Shown here one piece after another: positions 54,620 through 64,000 of a DNA stretch of 64,000 bases. Positions within the stretch are counted from its first letter, which is position 1; each line of letters starts with the position of its first letter. The stretch lies in contig NZ_CP116619.1 in NCBI RefSeq assembly GCF_030409055.1, positions 1,893,628-1,957,627 on the forward strand. The letters are read 5' to 3'. Under the pieces are notes generated by a model, which had not been told where the DNA came from, made no database searches, and saw only the letters and a program-made list of their open reading frames with translations. Origin of the DNA: Trichocoleus desertorum NBK24. Its GTDB lineage: Bacteria; Cyanobacteriota; Cyanobacteriia; FACHB-46. The translations under genes were made by a program, and so were the position numbers.

Positions 54620-57427
54620 ATGTTAGTCAATCGAATTGTGATCGGTTCAGCCGCGTTCGGTCTTAGCTTTGGCTTGAGTTTTCTCGCTGAGCGCAACTTG
54701 CAGCGATCGCTCCTGACGGGGCTAATTGCGCCAGGTGCCTATGCGGGAGCAGTCGCCATTGACGATCGCCAGAAACGGCAAGCCCAACTAAAAGGGCAGG
54801 CGATCGCGGGACAGTTGCAAGCTTACGAGCAACGGCAAGCAGAAATCCAGCAAGCTCTCTTGAGCGCTACTGCCGAAAAGCAGCGAGCCGAAACCAGCTT
54901 GAGCTTTTTGCAAGCAGACTTTGAGAAGCTGCAAGTTCGCATTGCTGAACAACAACAGCAAGATCGGGACTTAGGTCAAGCGATCGCCAGCTTAGAAGGG
55001 CGCAAACAGCAACTGGAACTTGGGTTCCAGAAGTTGCAAGAGCGGGTACAGGGTTTAGCAGCACGGGAAGCAGAAATCCAGCAAGCGATCGCCAACACGA
55101 CAGAGGTGCGGCAAAGTTTAGCGGTTGAGGCAGGTCAGCACCAGCAAGAACTGAGTCAACTCAAAACCCAAATTGCTGAATTTACCGCGCAAAAACTCCA
55201 ACTCCACAGCGATGTTGCTGCCTTGCAAACCAGCAAGCAACTGTTAGCCGCAGAAACCAAGGATTTACAAGCACAAATCCAAACGCTGGAGCGATCGCGG
55301 CAAATCCTGAATGAGTCTCTAGCGGAACTGGCAGCGATCGACGTAGAGCCACTGAAGACGGAAATTCAAACCATCATTGCTGCTGTTGATACACAACCGT
55401 TGCAGGCAGAAATTCAAGGATTAGTTTCAGCGATCGATGTAGAGCCGCTAAGAGCTGAGATTCAGGAGCTAGCGGCAGCCATCAATGTGCCGTTGTTGAA
55501 ATCGGAGATTCGATCACTAATAGATGCGATCGATCTGCAACCGCTGAAATCGGAGATTCGATCACTAGTTGCCGCGATCGATGTCCAAGCGTTGAGATCA
55601 AAGATTGAAGCATTAATTTCAACCATTGATGCACAGTCGTTGAAGTCAGAAATCCAAACCATCATTTCTGCGATCGATGTAGAGCCGCTGAAATCGGAAA
55701 TTCAAAAGATTGATTTACAACCCTTGAGGTCGGAAATTGCAGAATTAGTGACGGCGATCGATCTGCAACCACTGAAGTTAGAAATTCAATCGCTAGTGAC
55801 GGCGATCGATACACAGCCCTTAAAAGCGGAAAGCCCAACAGTCGATTTGCAACTGCTGAAGTCAGAGATTCAATTACTAGTTGCCGAGATCGATCTGCAA
55901 CCGCTCAAATCAGAGATTGCGGGGCTAGTAGCTGGCATCGATCTACAACCCCTGAAGTTAGAAATTCAATCGTTATTTGCGGCGATCGCAACTCAAAGGC
56001 AAGAACTAGAGACAGCTCTGGAAATCTTACTAACCCAAGTCGCTAACCGAATCCCACAATCGACTGAAGTGTTCCAGGAGGAACTGTCTAGGGGTGAACT
56101 GGTCAGTATAGAGCAGTCTCCGGTTGAAGTTCTGCGACCCGACCCGTCGGAATCGGAATGGAAAACAGATGAACCTGGATCTAGAGTCAATGATTTGCTG
56201 ACTCCGGAGTGGCATGAATTTATCAAAGATTTGTCCGATGCTGAATATCAAGCATTGCAAGCGATCCTCTGGCAAGATGCCGACACTCTGAAGCAGATTG
56301 CTGATGAGCAATTGGTGATGCCTAGCATGCTGGTCGAAGCGATCAATGAAGTGGCTAAGCAAACCATTGGCGATTTGATTTTGCAGTCAGGGTCAGGCTC
56401 GGCTCTACCAGAAGTTTACGAAGAATATGTTGAATCTCTGGAAAGAGCGATCGCTTTGCTATCGAGAGACAGCTTTCCTGTCACAACCATTGATGTTGAA
56501 GTAACAGATGTGCCAGCAGCGATCGCAGCCCTACCAGCCAAACTAGGCACCTGGAAATGTCGGGTGATCTTTGAGACTGGAGCCAATGCTTTAGTGATCA
56601 CCCCGAATAGCCAAACCTTAATCAGTGGTGGGAGTGACAACAAACTACAAGTTTGGGCCTTGGAAGGCAAATGGGTACAAACCCTTTCCCAGCCCAAAAA
56701 CTCTGGCTCGATTTATGCCCTTGCAATGCATCCCAGCGGCAAGCTGTTGTTTAGCAGTGGCAGCAGCAACACAATTAAAGTCTGGAATCTGAAGACAGGC
56801 GAATTAATCCGCACCCTCACCGGACATACCACTGCCGTAAATGCGATCGCCGTTAGCCCAGATGCTCAGTTACTCGCCAGTGGCAGCGCCGATCGCAGCA
56901 TTAAAGTGTGGGACATCAGAAGCGGACGCTTACTCCAAACCCTCAATGGTTATGGCTTCATTACCTCAGTGGTTTTCAGCCCTCGCCTTGACAAAGATAT
57001 TCTTGCCAGTGGCGACCAAAACGGTACGATTCACCTTTGGAATTTAGATACCAAAGCTACTTTCAACTCCTTGCCCGCTCATGGCAGCAAAGTTTGCTCA
57101 ATGGCATTTAGCCCCGATGGTAAAACGATTCTCAGTGGAGGTGCAGACGGCACCATCAAGCTTTGGGATTTAGGCCCAGATGTTAGCTCCAGTCTGGCAT
57201 TGCATAAAGGCCAAGTATCAGCAGTTGCCATTAGCCCCAACGGTCAGTTTTTAATCAGTGGTGGTGAAGATTGCACCTTGAAAGTTTGGAATTTAGAGTC
57301 GAGAGAATTGCTAACGACGTTGAGCGAACATAAGGGTAAGATTTGTGCGATCGCCTTTGCGCCAGATAGCAATACATTTGTTAGCAGTAGCGCCGATCAA
57401 ACCATTAGAGTTTGGCGATACAGTTAA
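54620..57427 (+). CDS. Multidomain coiled-coil / 16-residue repeat / TerB-C-like / WD40 protein
   Basis: A 935-residue protein. Residues 1-45 hold one or two hydrophobic helices (probable membrane anchor); 50-235 is Gln/Glu-rich coiled coil; 239-455 is a series of about 14 copies of a 16-residue unit with consensus AIDLQPLKSEIQSLVA; 515-615 (PEWHEFIKDLSDAEYQALQ, MPSMLVEAINEVAKQTIGDL, LPEVYEEYVESLERAI) resembles the TerB-C domain of Ter-type stress systems; 640-933 is a WD40 propeller with seven blades (VWALEGKW, VWNLKTGEL, VWDIRSGRL, LWNLDTKA, LWDLGPDV, VWNLESREL, VWRYS). TerB-C similarity is by eye. The next gene, 49 bases on, is a BrxD-type ATPase, so the two probably act together. Confidence 0.85.
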   Translation: MLVNRIVIGSAAFGLSFGLSFLAERNLQRSLLTGLIAPGAYAGAVAIDDRQKRQAQLKGQAIAGQLQAYEQRQAEIQQALLSATAEKQRAETSLSFLQADFEKLQVRIAEQQQQDRDLGQAIASLEGRKQQLELGFQKLQERVQGLAAREAEIQQAIANTTEVRQSLAVEAGQHQQELSQLKTQIAEFTAQKLQLHSDVAALQTSKQLLAAETKDLQAQIQTLERSRQILNESLAELAAIDVEPLKTEIQTIIAAVDTQPLQAEIQGLVSAIDVEPLRAEIQELAAAINVPLLKSEIRSLIDAIDLQPLKSEIRSLVAAIDVQALRSKIEALISTIDAQSLKSEIQTIISAIDVEPLKSEIQKIDLQPLRSEIAELVTAIDLQPLKLEIQSLVTAIDTQPLKAESPTVDLQLLKSEIQLLVAEIDLQPLKSEIAGLVAGIDLQPLKLEIQSLFAAIATQRQELETALEILLTQVANRIPQSTEVFQEELSRGELVSIEQSPVEVLRPDPSESEWKTDEPGSRVNDLLTPEWHEFIKDLSDAEYQALQAILWQDADTLKQIADEQLVMPSMLVEAINEVAKQTIGDLILQSGSGSALPEVYEEYVESLERAIALLSRDSFPVTTIDVEVTDVPAAIAALPAKLGTWKCRVIFETGANALVITPNSQTLISGGSDNKLQVWALEGKWVQTLSQPKNSGSIYALAMHPSGKLLFSSGSSNTIKVWNLKTGELIRTLTGHTTAVNAIAVSPDAQLLASGSADRSIKVWDIRSGRLLQTLNGYGFITSVVFSPRLDKDILASGDQNGTIHLWNLDTKATFNSLPAHGSKVCSMAFSPDGKTILSGGADGTIKLWDLGPDVSSSLALHKGQVSAVAISPNGQFLISGGEDCTLKVWNLESRELLTTLSEHKGKICAIAFAPDSNTFVSSSADQTIRVWRYS
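55334..55990 (+). repeat. 48-bp-period coding repeat
   Basis: DNA for the 16-residue units of the 935-residue protein. Units vary at the nucleotide level, with frequent GCGATCGAT at the Ala-Ile-Asp codons; two units are shortened near 55700 and 55840. The pattern is an in-frame expansion, not a random low-complexity tract. Confidence 0.88.
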
Positions 57428-57476
57428 CAGACACCAAAGTTAGTCCATCGGCCCTGACCAAACGTAGTGCAGACAC

Positions 57477-58805
57477 ATGGCAAAGCAGAAACTTTCCAAG
57501 CGGGTATCCACAGCCTTGATCAATGCCTTGGGTGCGGGAGTCGTTCCCAGAATTGGTCTGGAACAAATTGCTGTGGGTCGGGAAGTAGAAGCCAAAGCTC
57601 TAGTCCAAGACCTGGAAAACACGGCTGAAGGTGGCGCAGCGTTTCGGTTTGTGGTGGGTCGCTACGGATCTGGTAAGAGCTTCATCCTGCAACTGATTCG
57701 CAATCAAGCGATGGAGCAAGGCTTTGTCGTTGCCGATGCTGATTTGTCTCCAGAACGCCGCTTAGCAGGAGCCAGTGGACAAAGTATCGCCACTTATCGG
57801 GAGTTGATGCAAAACATCGCCACGAAGACCAATCCAGACGGCGGCGCGATCGCCCTGATTCTGGAACGTTGGATCAGCGGTGTCTTAACTCAAGTGGCGC
57901 AGGAAAGCGGCAAACGCCCCAAAGATGAAGGCTTTGATGACTTGGTAGAAGTCAAAATTCGCGAAGTGGTGCAAACCTTAGAAGGATTGGTTCATGGCTT
58001 CGACTTTGCCAGCGTGATCATTGCTTACTGGCGCGGCTACCGTACCGACGACGACAGCTTAAAAGATGCGGCTCTGCGTTGGCTGCGAGGAGAATTCTCT
58101 ACCAAATCCGATGCGAAAGCAGCCTTAGGCGTAAAAGTCATCATTGATGACGAAACTTGGTACGACTACATCAAGTTGTTCGCCAAGTTTGTCTCAGGGA
58201 TTGGCTACAAAGGCTTACTGGTGCTGCTGGATGAAGCGGTGCATCTCTACAAAATCACCCATGCAGGTTCCCGCCAGAACAATTACGACAAGTTGTTGGC
58301 CATGTTCAATGACACGGTGCAAGGTCGAGTTGGGCATCTCAACATCATCATTGGTGGCACCCCACAATTTCTCGAAGATTCGCGCCGAGGGCTCTACAGC
58401 GACCCCGCCTGGCAACGCCGCACTGCCCAAAGTCGCTTTGCTCAACCAGGTCTGCAAGATACCTCTGGCCCCGTAATTCGATTAGAACCTCTCACCCAAC
58501 CAGAAATCCTCCAACTGCTACAACGCTTGGCAGAAGTCCATTCCGCTCACTACGCTTACCAAGCTTCGTTGAATAATCGCGACCTACAAGCCTTCCTTAA
58601 AGAAATCACCAATCGCCTCGGTGCTGAAGCTCTACTCACTCCCGGCGAAATTGTCCGCGACTTCATCAGCGCCCTCAACCTCCTCCACCAAAACCCCAAA
58701 CTCTCCCTCACCCAACTACTCGGCGGCACCAATTTCCAACCCACTCGCTCAGGCAAAGACGCCAAAGTAGACGAAACCGGAGAATTTGCAGAATTTACAC
58801 TTTAA
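57477..58805 (+). CDS. BrxD/DUF2791-type P-loop ATPase
   Basis: A 442-residue AAA+-like ATPase. It starts with the family-typical STALINALGAGVVPRIGLEQIAVGR region (split over residues 11-35). Walker A is GRYGSGKS at 61-68, Walker B LLVLLDEA at 247-254 and a sensor-1-like IIGGTPQF near 291-298; a conserved RR-x4-R cluster is near 314-320. These match the DUF2791 family, which includes BREX protein BrxD and the ATPases of TerB-linked gene clusters. No helicase (BrxHI-like), PglZ or methyltransferase is nearby, so this is not a BREX locus. The likely partner is the upstream TerB-C/WD40 protein, same strand, 49-bp gap. No terminator intervenes. Confidence 0.88.
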   Translation: MAKQKLSKRVSTALINALGAGVVPRIGLEQIAVGREVEAKALVQDLENTAEGGAAFRFVVGRYGSGKSFILQLIRNQAMEQGFVVADADLSPERRLAGASGQSIATYRELMQNIATKTNPDGGAIALILERWISGVLTQVAQESGKRPKDEGFDDLVEVKIREVVQTLEGLVHGFDFASVIIAYWRGYRTDDDSLKDAALRWLRGEFSTKSDAKAALGVKVIIDDETWYDYIKLFAKFVSGIGYKGLLVLLDEAVHLYKITHAGSRQNNYDKLLAMFNDTVQGRVGHLNIIIGGTPQFLEDSRRGLYSDPAWQRRTAQSRFAQPGLQDTSGPVIRLEPLTQPEILQLLQRLAEVHSAHYAYQASLNNRDLQAFLKEITNRLGAEALLTPGEIVRDFISALNLLHQNPKLSLTQLLGGTNFQPTRSGKDAKVDETGEFAEFTL

Positions 58806-58825
58806 GTACAGGGATACAAATCAGT

Positions 58826-58867
58826 GAGCGATCGCTTTCATTATTGCTGAACTTGGAGAGAGCGATC
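58826..58867. repeat. Dispersed GCGATCGC palindrome, copy 1
   Basis: GAGCGATCGCTTTC at 58826, then a TTATTGCTGAACTTGGA spacer, then GAGAGCGATC. The ends can pair, giving a short hairpin. Same family as copies at 59525, 59815, 61273 and 62041. Confidence 0.85.
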
Positions 58868-58944
58868 TTAACTTAGACAGAATGTTTTTTGGTTTCTAAG
58901 TTTAATAAATGTTCTAGGTTTTATCGATGAAGTTATGATTTTTT

Positions 58945-59418
58945 GTGATGTTTAGACTAAGTGAGGAAGTAAAGCAGCAATTAGAAGCTGTAGCCCCTCT
59001 CATAACGTTTTTTGGGCTACCCAGAAAGAAGCAAATAGCAGTTCTACCTAAGTTAGAAGAGAAAAGAAAATACGATTTTCCTGATGGGGATTTAATAACA
59101 AGTAATGCTCTTGAAGTCTTACTGAATAGCTATGGCTCTTGCCTAAACTCGATTTTGATGTCACTCATGATTATGCTTGATGAGCTAAGAAACGAGGATG
59201 TCAAGTATTTAGCTGATCTTGTTGAGCATCTCTTGGAAACAATTTCTGAAATCTTAGAGAAGCAGTTTGAGACTATGGATAGTGCAAGGAGTTCTGGTAC
59301 TTCTGAATGGGATACTCTTCGCTTACTTTCCTTAGAATTTCAACAAGCAACAAACATTCATTCGGAGATCAACAAAAATATTATAAAAACGTGTTTAGAA
59401 TATTGGCTTCATCCTTAG
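58945..59418 (+). CDS. Orphan AT-rich gene, unknown function
   Basis: A 157-residue helical protein (RLSEEVKQQLEAVAPLITFF, LEVLLNSYGSCLNSILMSLM, LADLVEHLLETISEILEKQF) with no recognised motif and no signal peptide. It is AT-richer than the ATPase gene upstream, like the HEPN and LRAT genes further right, suggesting acquisition. It lies between two copies of the dispersed palindrome. ATG 58945 or the next codon ATG-like start both fit. Function cannot be inferred. Confidence 0.55.
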   Translation: MMFRLSEEVKQQLEAVAPLITFFGLPRKKQIAVLPKLEEKRKYDFPDGDLITSNALEVLLNSYGSCLNSILMSLMIMLDELRNEDVKYLADLVEHLLETISEILEKQFETMDSARSSGTSEWDTLRLLSLEFQQATNIHSEINKNIIKTCLEYWLHP

Positions 59419-59524
59419 CGCCAGGCAGTGTATAACAACTTTCTCAGAATAGTCTATCGAAAATTTTTATTGTTGGGGTTGAGGTTGTTTTAGCCAATGC
59501 AGTGAACTTTTGTAGAAAAGGCTG

Positions 59525-59563
59525 CTCGCTTTCACTACTGCTGAACTTGAAGAGAGCAATCAC
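59525..59563. repeat. Dispersed GCGATCGC palindrome, copy 2
   Basis: CTCGCTTTCACTACTGCTGA, ACTTGAAGAGAGCAATCAC. It matches copy 1 with several changes that weaken both arms; the HIP1 core is lost at both ends. It forms the left end of the 218-bp duplication. Confidence 0.75.
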
Positions 59564-59749
59564 GTATCTTTTCTGACTTCCTACTAATGGTTGAATCGAG
59601 ACAATAAGAGTTGCGGAAAATTCTATTTCAAAGGTTTAGGAATTGGATGATCGCAGAGTGAAGCTCACTTTTAGCAATCACACAATACTTGCCCAAGGAC
59701 ATGTTCAATTTACGTAACTCTCTCTTCTCTTGTTTAGCGATCGCTAACT
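59532..59749. repeat. Direct repeat, left copy (about 218 bp)
   Basis: It aligns along its whole length with 61278-61497, with roughly one change in nine by eye and no visible indel. It carries the upstream region and first 15 codons of the gerMN-type gene found intact at 61451. Confidence 0.9.
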
Positions 59750-59757
59750 CCTCATAA
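59701..59757 (+). pseudogene. Truncated 5' remnant of a GerMN-type gene
   Basis: ATG 59701 encodes MFNLRNSLFSCLAIA, identical to the start of the intact GerMN protein at 61451, then diverges to NSS-stop. Only the first half of a signal peptide remains. The upstream region is also duplicated. Confidence 0.85.
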
Positions 59758-59814
59758 TGGTGGAACTGAGATAAGAAGTTAGCAAGAATTCTACTGTGGA
59801 GAGTTTGAGGAATT

Positions 59815-59860
59815 GGGCGATCGCTTTCACTATTAATTAAATTGCAGAGAGCGATCGCGT
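59815..59860. repeat. Dispersed GCGATCGC palindrome, copy 3
   Basis: GGGCGATCGCTTTCACTATT at 59815 and, after a short AT spacer, GCAGAGAGCGATCGCGT. Both arms end in HIP1 octamers, giving the best hairpin of the family. Confidence 0.85.
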
Positions 59861-59924
59861 AAACCTTCTCCTACAAAGCCTTGCCATACAATGGACACTG
59901 AATCTTGAGATTGGGAAGCAGGCA

Positions 59925-60203
59925 ATGAATCCTACAGGTAATTCCCCACTAGAGAACACAGAATCAGCAGCTCTAACATCTGTGACAGAGCTACAACGTC
60001 AGCTTAATGACTCACTCAAACAATTATCTCCAGAGCGATTACGGGTACTTGCTGATTTTGCAGCTTATCTGGCAAATGCTGAAAGCGAAGCCGCAACTCA
60101 AGAACTCCTGGCAATTCCGGGATTGTTAGAGCGAGTTAAGCTCAATCAAACAACTCCTAGAAATCAATACACCGATTGGAGATCCCTTCGTTCTGATGTA
60201 TGA
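59925..60203 (+). CDS. Antitoxin of a RelE/ParE-type module
   Basis: A 92-residue protein, helical in the middle (LQRQLNDSLKQLSPERLRVL, ADFAAYLANAESEAATQELL) with a C-terminal segment likely to bind toxin (NQYTDWRSLRSDV). The family resembles small DUF2281-like antitoxins rather than a clear RHH or HTH. It overlaps the toxin gene by 8 bases, the usual arrangement with antitoxin first. Confidence 0.72.
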   Translation: MNPTGNSPLENTESAALTSVTELQRQLNDSLKQLSPERLRVLADFAAYLANAESEAATQELLAIPGLLERVKLNQTTPRNQYTDWRSLRSDV

Positions 60204-60459
60204 AGTTCTTCTCCATCCTGACGCTCAAAAGGTGTATGTCAACGCTGATAAAGCTCTAGCGAAAAAGATCGCTCGATGCTTGCAGCAGCTAGAGCAAACT
60301 CCCCGGTCACACCCTAACATTAAAGCCCTTAAGGGAGATTATGCAGGTTACTATGGCTACCGCATCGGGGACTACAGAGTCATTTATTCGGTAGATGATG
60401 GACTCGTACAGGTACTGGTTGTAGCGATCGCCCATCGTAGTGAAGCATATGAGCCATGA
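60196..60459 (+). CDS. RelE/ParE-superfamily toxin
   Basis: An 87-residue protein: YEVLLHPDAQKVYVNADKAL, KKIARCLQQLEQ, NIKALKGDYAGYYGYRIGDY and RVIYSVDDG plus a C-terminal VVAIAHRSEAYEP. These are the signature blocks of RelE/ParE toxins of the mRNA-interferase type (LKG..GYRxRxGDYRVIY). Full length. It pairs with the overlapping antitoxin gene. Confidence 0.88.
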   Translation: MYEVLLHPDAQKVYVNADKALAKKIARCLQQLEQTPRSHPNIKALKGDYAGYYGYRIGDYRVIYSVDDGLVQVLVVAIAHRSEAYEP

Positions 60460-61284
60460 CTAGCGGATACGTATCCCCGGAAATTTAGATGTACTTTTCG
60501 CTATATGTCTTCCCACTCCTGCAGCCTTCTTCACTATACTTCTTCGTCTTTTCTCAGCCTCTTTCGCGAATTTTCTAGCTTCATAGCCAGCAGCTTTACC
60601 TCCTGCCAAGATAATTTGTTCACCCTGTTTGCATCTTGACTTTCCTGTTTTGCACCAATTGGCAAAGTGCTCACAATTATTAAAAATAAGATTGTAGTTT
60701 CGTTCACCCAAACGTCGTTTGGCTCTCTTTACAACTCTGGTTTGTGAAAATGATTTGCGATGGCGTTTTATATGAATTCTTTGGTTCTTAGCAAATTTAG
60801 ATAATTGAGTTTTGTCAATTCTTTTACCATTTACGTAGTGGATAACTTCATCATCGCCACAATAAATTCCATGATGAAAGCAATGACCATAGTCAGCGTA
60901 GATGTGATCACCCATCTTTAAACCAGTTCTACAATAAATAGCGAAGTCCTTGCTATTAATAAATTGATATTTAAGCTTTTCTTCTTTGAATCTTGTTTCC
61001 GCTCTTTTAATTGTTTTTTCTCGATCAATACATCTGCAAGCATATTTCCTGACTTTGGAATTTGCACCTTGAGTGAACTCTGCGAGACTCACTCGACAAA
61101 GTTGACCACTTTTTGAATCCTGATCTGTCCAGTAAATAACTAAATCTTCACCAACATATATTCCATGCTGCTTGCAGGAACCAAGATCAACATATATATG
61201 ATCGCCCTTTTTCACGGTAGTTAGTCTCTCTATTTGTTTTTCATAGAGTTCCCATCTCATTGATAAGCTGATCATCATTACCAC
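60460..61284 (-). CDS. Tandem LRAT-domain protein with one degenerate domain
   Basis: A 274-residue protein with two LRAT/NlpC-P60-like domains. Domain 2 (about 123-215) has DHIYADYGHCFHHGIYCGDD (split) with H138 and the catalytic motif NCEHF at 203-207 (C204). Domain 1 (about 25-120) has the same layout (DHIYVDLGSCKQHGIYVGED, split, H40) but its motif is NSKDF at 110-114, so the nucleophile is lost. A basic tail (KEAEKRRRSIVKKAAG) follows. LRAT proteins are acyltransferases or thiol lipases. The gene is AT-rich. Start ATG 61284 or 61260. Confidence 0.85.
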   Translation of the reverse strand: MVMMISLSMRWELYEKQIERLTTVKKGDHIYVDLGSCKQHGIYVGEDLVIYWTDQDSKSGQLCRVSLAEFTQGANSKVRKYACRCIDREKTIKRAETRFKEEKLKYQFINSKDFAIYCRTGLKMGDHIYADYGHCFHHGIYCGDDEVIHYVNGKRIDKTQLSKFAKNQRIHIKRHRKSFSQTRVVKRAKRRLGERNYNLIFNNCEHFANWCKTGKSRCKQGEQIILAGGKAAGYEARKFAKEAEKRRRSIVKKAAGVGRHIAKSTSKFPGIRIR

Positions 61285-61312
61285 TACTGCTGAACTTGGA
61301 GAGAGCGATCAC
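61273..61312. repeat. Dispersed GCGATCGC palindrome, copy 4
   Basis: ATCATTACCACTACTGCTGA then ACTTGGAGAGAGCGATCACC. It overlaps the start of the tandem-LRAT gene and begins the right copy of the 218-bp duplication; the right arm is intact, the left is decayed. Confidence 0.75.
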
Positions 61313-61497
61313 CTATCTTTTTTGGCTTCCTGCTAATGGTTGAATTGAGACAATAAAAGTTGCAGAAAATTCTATTGCAAAGGTTTAGGAATTGGGCGAT
61401 CGCGGATTGAAGCTACCTTCAGCAATCACACGATACTTGTCCAAAAGTTCATGTTTAATTTACGTAACTCTCTCTTCTCTTGTTTAGCGATCGCTAC
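61278..61497. repeat. Direct repeat, right copy (about 218 bp)
   Basis: It aligns with 59532-59749. It includes the upstream region of the intact GerMN gene and its first 15 codons, and at the left overlaps the LRAT gene start, so the duplicated unit ends within a gene there. Confidence 0.9.
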
Positions 61498-62005
61498 CCT
61501 CGCCGGAATTAGCCTCTCTGACAGCCGTCCCACAAACGCTAACCCTGTTGACAACGTAGCCCAAGCCTCGACTGTTGCTGCTACAACCAACACCAAGCCA
61601 GTCAAAGTGTTTTTCCCCACCAGCCGTAGCCAACAAGATTTTTCTTACGTGGCTCCTGTAGTACGACGCACCCAAACTCAAGGGGTGGCCCAATTTGCCA
61701 TTGAGCAATTAGTCGCAGGCCCAACCAGTCAAGAAAGACAACAAGGTTTTAGAGCCCCACTCAATTTGCAAGGCAGCTCTAACTGTGGTCGAGACTTTAA
61801 GCTAGTTGTCTCTACAGGTGTTGCCAAGTTGCAATTCTGTAAGCAAGTGGTATCCAACGGCATTGGCGATGATGCTCGAATCAAAAGCTCAATTACCACC
61901 ACATTGAAGCAATTCCCTAGCATCAATTCAGTGGTACTTCTCGATCGCAACGGCAACTGCTTGAACGACCAAAGTGGTAACAATCGCTGTTTGCAGCAGA
62001 GTTAA
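61451..62005 (+). CDS. GerMN-domain exported protein
   Basis: A 184-residue secreted protein. The signal peptide ends near LSDSRPTNA; then a GerMN domain (about 50-175) with KVFFPTSRSQQD, GVAQFAIEQLVAGPTSQERQ and VVSTGVAKLQFCKQV. GerMN domains occur in spore-germination protein GerM and in many cyanobacterial envelope proteins, role unclear. Its upstream 170 bases are duplicated at 59.5 kb. Confidence 0.85.
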   Translation: MFNLRNSLFSCLAIATLAGISLSDSRPTNANPVDNVAQASTVAATTNTKPVKVFFPTSRSQQDFSYVAPVVRRTQTQGVAQFAIEQLVAGPTSQERQQGFRAPLNLQGSSNCGRDFKLVVSTGVAKLQFCKQVVSNGIGDDARIKSSITTTLKQFPSINSVVLLDRNGNCLNDQSGNNRCLQQS

Positions 62006-62317
62006 AAAACATCACTACTTGGTTTGAAGTAATGAATGAAGCGATCGCTTTTACTTAATTGAGCAAGAGCAATCGCTTTACAGCATACAGAAGGAGAATC
62101 ATAGCTGGTCTATTCTAGAAATACATTAGGAGTTTCCACATCTGATATATTGAGAGATTTCACTTATCTATTCCAAGTTAAATCAGATTAATTACTGAAA
62201 GTACTATCTTAATAATAGTCAGATATTCTTTTTGTGAAGTTACTTCCATGTGCCTCTTTGCAAATCCCTAGTGAGTGGCTAGAATTTGTGAGGATCTTCT
62301 AAAAGATATATAGACTT
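62006..62317. other. AT-rich intergenic region
   Basis: About 310 bases, with palindrome copy 5 at the left end (62041-62077). No gene, RNA or promoter is clear; AT content rises toward the HEPN gene. Confidence 0.5.
62041..62077. repeat. Dispersed GCGATCGC palindrome, copy 5
   Basis: GCGATCGCTTTTACTTAATT then GAGCAAGAGCAATCGCT. Diverged member of the same family. Confidence 0.65.
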
Positions 62318-63145
62318 ATGCATTCATTAAGCCAATCTATTTATGAAATTAATTCTAATTTGGAATCTCTTCGAGATTTTGTTGACATACTTGATACTCA
62401 CTTAAGTGAAAAAGCTCAGGAATCCCTTACTATACACTCATCATCTTTAGAGTTTCTTTTACTCGTTTTTGAAAAGTTATTTGAAAATGGGAAATATAAC
62501 TTAGACTCTGTTCCACCAGAACGAATGGAAGAAATCAGAGCTAAATATCCAGAGTTTTTATCAGCAGAATCCACACAGAATGGAAACAAGATAGATATAA
62601 CGCTCAAATTACCCGATAAAACTAATATCGAGTTAGATAAAATTGATATAGCGCTTAAGGAGATAGGGAAGGCGCAAGGAAGGACACGAATGCTGTATAG
62701 TAGCTCGCTGATGACACTAACTAGTAGTGTTGAGCTTTTCTTTTCCAAACTCTTTCATCAATATTTCTATCTACATCCTGAATCTATTGGCACTAAAGAG
62801 AAGTTATTTAGTTTTGATGATTTAAGTAAGTTTGATACTTTAGCAGACGCACGCACACATTATATAAGTTCTAGGATTGAAGATTTATTGCGCGGACCGC
62901 TGAGTGATTGGCTTTTGTTTGCTCGCAATACAGTAAAACTATCAATGGGATATTTGAAGGAAGAACAGGAACTTCTTGAAGAAACATTTCAGAGACGTAA
63001 CATTGTTGTTCATAATGGAGGAATTGCTAACTCAATCTACATAGCTAAGGTTCCTAAAAATCTTTGCAAAGATGTCAAAGTTAGCAATAACCTTAGAGGG
63101 TGTTTGAAAAGTCGGGTAAACAGTAGAAAAGCTCACTCAGTGTAA
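62318..63145 (+). pseudogene. HEPN-domain protein truncated by an IS element
   Basis: The 275-codon frame is mostly host: residues 1-260 encode a helical protein whose C-part has the HEPN catalytic motif R-x4-H (R227 to H232 in RRNIVVHNGG) following a helix bundle (residues 125-225). The last 15 residues are encoded by the left end of the IS, so the native C-terminus is lost. Resembles MAE_28990/RiboL-PSP-type HEPN proteins seen in defence and toxin-antitoxin loci, which act as RNases. AT-rich, likely acquired. The stub may still be expressed. Confidence 0.7.
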
Positions 63146-63181
63146 GCTGCGAATACGAAAGAACACAGCACCGAGTGAGCT
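63130..63181 (+). promoter_or_regulatory. Inverted repeat just upstream of the transposase start
   Basis: AGCTCACTCAGTG (63130-63142) pairs with CACCGAGTGAGCT (63169-63181), 13 bp with one mismatch, three bases before the transposase ATG. The likely role is to block translation of transcripts that read in from outside, as in other IS elements. Confidence 0.7.
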
Positions 63182-63183
63182 AG

Positions 63184-63975
63184 ATGGGTAAATCCTATCC
63201 CAGTAATCTGACCCGTGCCGAATACGAATTTCTCAGTGACCTGATTCCAGAAGCAAAACCCGGTGGTCGCCCACGCAGCATCGAGATGTGGGCAGTTCTC
63301 AATGCCATCTTCTACGTCCTAGTCGAGGGGTGTCGTTGGCGAGCGTTGCCGGGAGACTTTCCGGCATGGCAGACGGTGTATACCTATTTTCGCAACTGGC
63401 GCAAGGACGGCACTTGGATTGTGATTCATGACCGCTTACGTGAGTGGACGCGCATCGAAGTGGATCGCCAGCCCAGTCCCTCTGAAGCGATCCTCGACTC
63501 GCAAAGTGTCAAAACGGCGGCAGGGGTGAGCGAACAGGTGGGATTTGACAGTGGCAAAGTGATCAAGGGGCGCAAGCGGTTTATCAGTGTCGATACCTTG
63601 GGACTGGTGCTGCGTGTGTTCGTGACTGCTGCCAGTGTGGGAGAACGAGCAGGGGGCAAACGGGTACTCAAGCGGGTCAAACGGATGGACAAAGCTGTGT
63701 TTCGTCTAACCACCATTTGGGTCGATGGTGGCTTTGATGGCGCACCGTTCCTAATGTGGGTGATGGACGTTTGCCGTTGGATTATCCAAGTGGTGCTGCG
63801 ACCTGAACAAACCAAGGGGTTCGTGCTGCTCAAAAAGCGATGGGTGGTGGAGCGGACATTCGGTTGGTTGATGCACTGTCGTCGTCTAGTGCGTGACTAT
63901 GAGTTATTGCCAGAGACCTCAGAGACATTAATCTATCTGGCAATGATTCGGATAATGGTCAAGCGATTGGCGTAA
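63184..63975 (+). CDS. IS5-family transposase
   Basis: A 263-residue DDE transposase. The N-terminal region has LSDLIPEAKPGGRPRS and a helix-turn-helix-like stretch; DDE residues are in ILDSQSVKTA (D), WVDGGFDGAP (D) and VVERTFGWL (E). All three catalytic residues are present and the frame is intact, so the element may be active. Confidence 0.93.
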   Translation: MGKSYPSNLTRAEYEFLSDLIPEAKPGGRPRSIEMWAVLNAIFYVLVEGCRWRALPGDFPAWQTVYTYFRNWRKDGTWIVIHDRLREWTRIEVDRQPSPSEAILDSQSVKTAAGVSEQVGFDSGKVIKGRKRFISVDTLGLVLRVFVTAASVGERAGGKRVLKRVKRMDKAVFRLTTIWVDGGFDGAPFLMWVMDVCRWIIQVVLRPEQTKGFVLLKKRWVVERTFGWLMHCRRLVRDYELLPETSETLIYLAMIRIMVKRLA

Positions 63976-64000
63976 ACTTTGACTCGTTACAACTTTTCAA

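Follow-up and report, generated by a model that had tools for sequence, protein, structure and literature searches.

A Shango-type gene set with a WD40-fused SngA protein in the cyanobacterium Trichocoleus desertorum

Near the end of a 64,000-nucleotide stretch of the Trichocoleus desertorum NBK24 genome (contig NZ_CP116619.1, positions 1,893,628 to 1,957,627; 'the window'), two forward-strand genes separated by 49 bases encode a multidomain protein of 935 residues (54620..57427) and an ATPase of 442 residues (57477..58805). The initial annotation, which had described both ORFs and their spacing correctly, proposed that they form a stripped-down, undescribed system without a helicase. Do these two genes work alone, or are they part of a system that is already known?

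The ATPase and its helicase partner

The ATPase is a member of the PF10923 family (553 bits), as had been suspected, and its Walker motifs are intact (Walker A, GRYGSGKS, from residue 61; Walker B, LLVLLDE). The helicase was found at C1:1958412-1960604 of the genome, on the same strand (window-equivalent 64785-66977); its start lies 785 bases past the window end (genome position 1957627) and ∼ 6 kb downstream of the ATPase gene. The impression of a two-gene system thus arose from an edge effect of the window and from the ∼ 6 kb of intervening genes. Together with the TerB-C protein, the two enzymes make up a trio of the Shango type, which leaves neither 'undescribed' nor 'stripped-down' an apt description. 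The link that had been drawn between DUF2791-type ATPases and antiphage or TerB-linked DNA-processing genes was right. Shango is a three-gene antiphage system of Pseudomonas aeruginosa PA14, composed of a TerB protein (SngA), an ATPase (SngB) and a helicase (SngC), that gives 10-100-fold protection on solid medium in phage plating (PMC10250203). Our literature search returned no report of Shango in cyanobacteria and no paper combining TerB and DUF2791.

The window ATPase matches the PADLOC profile of SngB with 588 bits (residues 1-440) versus 180 bits for BrxD, and the helicase scores 829 bits with the Shango SngC profile versus 445 bits with BrxHI. SngC carries helicase motifs I, II, III and VI; among solved structures its nearest relatives are Lhr helicases, and MrfA/YprA rank lower. 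The secondary scores do reflect a distant relationship to BrxD and BrxHI, but that the genes are a remnant of BREX type 2 (BrxD plus BrxHI) is scarcely credible: the Shango profiles score much better, the NCBIfam BrxD score of the ATPase (182) is below the cut-off of 350, and true cyanobacterial BrxD forms a separate, very long branch and adjoins its own BrxHI-like helicase. None of PglZ, PglX and PglW is present among the neighbour genes examined.

The genes that separate SngB from SngC (58806..64000 in the window) were delimited from the placement of SngC at C1:1958412 and by comparison with congeners. Both congeners likewise have LRAT and Germane genes in the SngB-SngC interval, whose length is 2.6-6 kb in all three genomes of the genus. 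Other features of the interval are recorded here in their own right. At 62318-63975 a HEPN-like ORF (recognized by eye, without Pfam match) is directly followed by an IS5-type transposase, whose insertion may have shortened it; this stretch is not in congener G040. At 59925-60459 a small antitoxin-like ORF (weak DUF2281 match, below cut-off) overlaps a ParE/YoeB-type toxin gene. A diverged duplication of ∼ 0.24 kb (59509-59746 and 61258-61496, ∼ 88% identity at the best-matched part) takes in the 5' end of the Germane-domain gene.

Architecture and mosaic form of the fused SngA

The 935-residue protein is identified as SngA-type by its TerB_C and WD40 domains and by a weak PADLOC SngA match (28 bits, residues 177-609). 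Its N-terminus (residues 1-48, 54620..54763) is hydrophobic, as predicted, and instead of the single membrane helix that had been proposed there are two short stretches (∼ 5-23 and ∼ 29-47), forming a hairpin that is a likely membrane anchor. Hydropathy is modest (peak 1.65), and confidence in the full-length model is very low here; the pattern NRxxxGxxAFgxSFGxSL...TG is common to nearly all unfused SngA proteins of the lineage, and residues 1-52 of the fused protein are identical in three congeners. The hairpin is followed by the expected coiled coil (residues 49-238, 54764..55333), seen as long unbroken helices in the model (49-159 and 164-238; pLDDT mostly 65-80, falling towards residue 49) and in SMC-like coiled-coil matches. 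The ∼ 14 copies of a 16-residue repeat (AIDLQPLKSEIQSLV-like; residues 238-453, 55331..55978) are equally clear, with 45% self-identity at period 16 versus ∼ 4% at neighbouring periods.

The suspected TerB-C segment (56069..56443) matches PF15615 with 40.1 bits (cut-off 26.3); it was not seen in the plain Pfam scan because the best 25 families listed were all WD40-like. It is modelled as a helical domain of winged-helix-like topology (mean pLDDT 77). A fold search with this model gave no significant match (best E 0.07), and the top matches are nearly all winged-helix regulators. The C-terminal propeller (56537..57424) has the predicted seven blades, with seven WD motifs (residues 678-934), a WD40 score of 218 bits and a beta-only model (pLDDT mostly 75-92). 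The full-length model is all-beta in its C-terminal half and poor outside the coiled coil and the propeller. TerB-C and WD40 are thus indeed fused in one protein.

This fusion is confined to one genus. A TerB_C protein of > 900 residues scoring over the cut-off occurs in 3 of the 102 TerB_C carriers among 390 genomes, all of the window's genus, where the gene is present in 3/3 genomes and always beside SngB. No WD40 fusion was found outside the genus in the 390 genomes (the single longer frame, of 1411 aa, matches in part and below threshold), nor among the TerB-C genes in the flanks of 80 named loci. The same three genomes also encode an unfused SngA of 431-437 residues elsewhere. Since other genomes do without WD40 and the genus retains an unfused paralogue, the WD40 part is an addition to the SngA of one genus and not a defining component. 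The unfused gene directly precedes an FrhB-type coenzyme F420 hydrogenase/reductase-like gene (L013:4807-7416, by eye), a neighbour shared by all three congeners in those surroundings that were examined or visible in part.

Across the three congeners, unfused SngA, SngB and SngC are 95-98% identical (dN/dS 0.02-0.04), with 96-98% for SngB and SngC. The fused gene is a mosaic, a pattern based on these three genomes: its flanking parts, mostly 80-95% alike whichever pair is compared, enclose two divergent blocks. In the first (within ∼ 55300-55900, repeats) the window is 83-97% identical to G040 and 53-71% to G025; in the second (∼ 55960-56480, TerB_C) G025 and G040 are 67-88% identical to each other, and the window is 45-62% identical to either. 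Informative sites number 28/162/26 for the repeat region and 32/36/121 for TerB_C; the largest excursion, 84, exceeds the highest value reached in 2000 permutations (37). The simplest reading is that recombination with divergent alleles made the mosaic; fast divergence of one lineage appears less likely because synonymous saturation is confined to the blocks. Misalignment of the repeat array may contribute to the first block. A TerB-C tree that grouped the fused forms with G170 was set aside for its long branches.

Distribution and inheritance in cyanobacteria

Similarity to the window protein separates cyanobacterial SngB into two groups. In the canonical group, overlap between the genes is frequent and SngA has TerB_N, TerB and TerB_C. 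SngA of the window's group combines TerB_C with a coiled coil and, at its N-terminus, a conserved hydrophobic hairpin. TerB_N and TerB are absent from unfused SngA at L013, L027 and L073 and both are present at the canonical loci L018 and L019; for the window SngA, whose profile scan covered the best 25 families, the lack of both was judged mainly by architecture. We conclude that SngA was rebuilt in this lineage while SngB and SngC were kept. The SngB group of the window is monophyletic (support 95/94) and is joined with Paenibacillus plasmid Shango, not with canonical cyanobacterial Shango.

Window-type SngB was detected in 27 of 194 sampled genomes of the class, and every one of these (27/27) also has a matching SngC and a TerB-C protein. 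SngB and SngC (790 bits or more) are found together in 41/194 genomes with one exception each way (Fisher p ∼ 1e-39); TerB_C is the sole component in five genomes, and in one SngC and TerB_C were detected but SngB was not. Physical linkage is much looser. Among the 27 lineage genomes, SngB and SngC lie within 15 kb in 12, SngA and SngB in 13, all three in 8 and none in 10, and on the complete chromosomes of G189 and G114 the three genes are hundreds of kilobases to megabases apart. Some canonical Shango genomes (G065, G124, G172, G076, G088, G187, G079 and G167) also have SngC far from SngA-SngB, so splitting is not confined to the variant lineage. The adjacency of the TerB-C and ATPase genes is widespread, being seen in 13/27 surveyed genomes and at most of the 80 named loci.

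A stand-alone system of the WD40-TerB_C protein and the ATPase, acting without a helicase, would fit the many Nostoc loci at which TerB-C adjoins the ATPase gene with no SngC in the 20 kb covered. The matching SngC elsewhere in each surveyed genome with window-type SngB, and its proximity in the window's own genus, make this very improbable.

Protein distances are correlated between SngB and SngC (0.87) and between SngC and SngA (0.91), and at 0.77-0.86 with GyrB (0/2000 permutations each). A DUF815 AAA+ gene immediately upstream of SngA is the usual arrangement (62 loci, several families). No SngB of > 60% identity is present in 72,556 plasmid records, of which 692 carry a more distant SngB (542 conjugative), and no lineage SngB was found in phage records. 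The distance correlation, the DUF815 neighbour and the absence from plasmids favour stable chromosomal inheritance over island-hopping. PADLOC matches among flanking genes are few in either set, where no family reaches more than 2/102 or 2/85 proteins; canonical loci have Cmr5/Cmr6 and HerA/DUF4297 as neighbours, the window lineage mainly PD-T4-6 kinase-type models. This contrast between canonical and window lineages, defence island versus core location, is suggestive only. Near DUF815-SngA in Nostoc relatives we also observed APH-type kinase and HopA1-domain genes (L133:2686-4294 and L118:4525-5799, minus strands), a pair reminiscent of class V lanthipeptide enzymes.

The lineage could be domesticated Shango, now maintained as a complex for chromosomal repair or replication support and without a present antiphage role. 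Largely vertical descent, the conserved DUF815 neighbour, the persistence of the genes though scattered over the chromosome, the plasmid and phage record and the low dN/dS of SngB, SngC and unfused SngA all agree with this housekeeping role. Most of the class genomes sampled lack the lineage, however, so it is not essential, and exchange of segments diversifies the fused SngA in a manner often seen for recognition proteins of conflict systems. We regard the housekeeping role as a serious contender that falls somewhat short of an even chance.

A proposed machine and its relation to known systems

All three components are encoded and co-inherited even when unlinked, and the catalytic motifs of ATPase and helicase are intact. 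On balance, and with confidence only slightly better than even, we favour a remodelled Shango-type system in which SngA, SngB and SngC form one membrane-held, ATP-driven DNA-processing machine, with the genus-specific WD40-SngA as an extra. The hairpin would anchor SngA at the membrane, and TerB-C, winged-helix-like in the model, may contact DNA or partner proteins. BrxD is an ORC-Cdc6-type AAA+ protein that may load its partner helicase BrxHI (PMC12839542); from the relationship of SngB to BrxD we propose that SngB, likewise of ORC/Cdc6 type, loads or activates SngC near the membrane, and that SngC, a putative Lhr/Ski2-like SF2 helicase, acts on DNA. Tethered SngA would thereby position SngB and SngC on DNA. 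In the window's genus, a duplicated SngA beside SngB would have acquired the 16-residue repeats and the propeller and would serve as an additional sensing or docking form, the propeller itself being probably a sensor or docking surface, a guess from its domain type. Its repeat and TerB-C segments appear to pass between strains, as though selection on recognition kept shifting; the conserved unfused SngA elsewhere in the genome would retain the basic role. More speculatively, and on present evidence rather doubtfully, a single cyanobacterial domestication may have given rise to a membrane-tethered, dispersed complex, with the WD40-SngA of one genus as a sensor that switches alleles as recombination shuffles its recognition segments.

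Three features stand out: SngA has been rebuilt, the genes are co-inherited although dispersed, and the WD40 form is a mosaic. Co-inheritance of unlinked components speaks for joint action of the three proteins with no need of an operon, and the dispersed genes can be deleted one by one in tractable cyanobacteria. Were the lineage domesticated, a defence machine would here have become a core gene set. Segment exchange suggests that changing selection acts on TerB-C and the repeats next to it, a testable lead on the recognition target of Shango.

Judged by their sequences, the window genes are a variant of known Shango. With PA14 Shango they share the three component families, SngB and SngC being matched over nearly their full length. 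The lineage SngA differs in having the hydrophobic hairpin and coiled coil and in lacking TerB_N (PF13208) and TerB (PF05099), to which the window protein adds repeats and WD40. In place of the compact three-gene operon of Shango, the lineage genes are often scattered over the chromosome; in the window SngA adjoins SngB, and SngC lies 6 kb off past unrelated genes. Canonical cyanobacterial Shango (e.g. L018) has the same gene order, TerB_C-ATPase-helicase, but its genes are compact and overlapping, its SngA has TerB_N, TerB and TerB_C, and its SngB is just 43-44% identical to that of the window. The nearest SngB outside cyanobacteria is that of Paenibacillus plasmid Shango (L203, L204; 53-54% identity), which clusters with the window lineage in the tree (support 85/94); unlike the window, these loci are compact operons whose SngA has TerB_N. 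BREX type 2 (PMC12839542) resembles the window in its dyad of a related AAA+ ATPase and an Lhr-like SF2 helicase, but it is a system without a TerB-C partner, and the window proteins score clearly lower against it.
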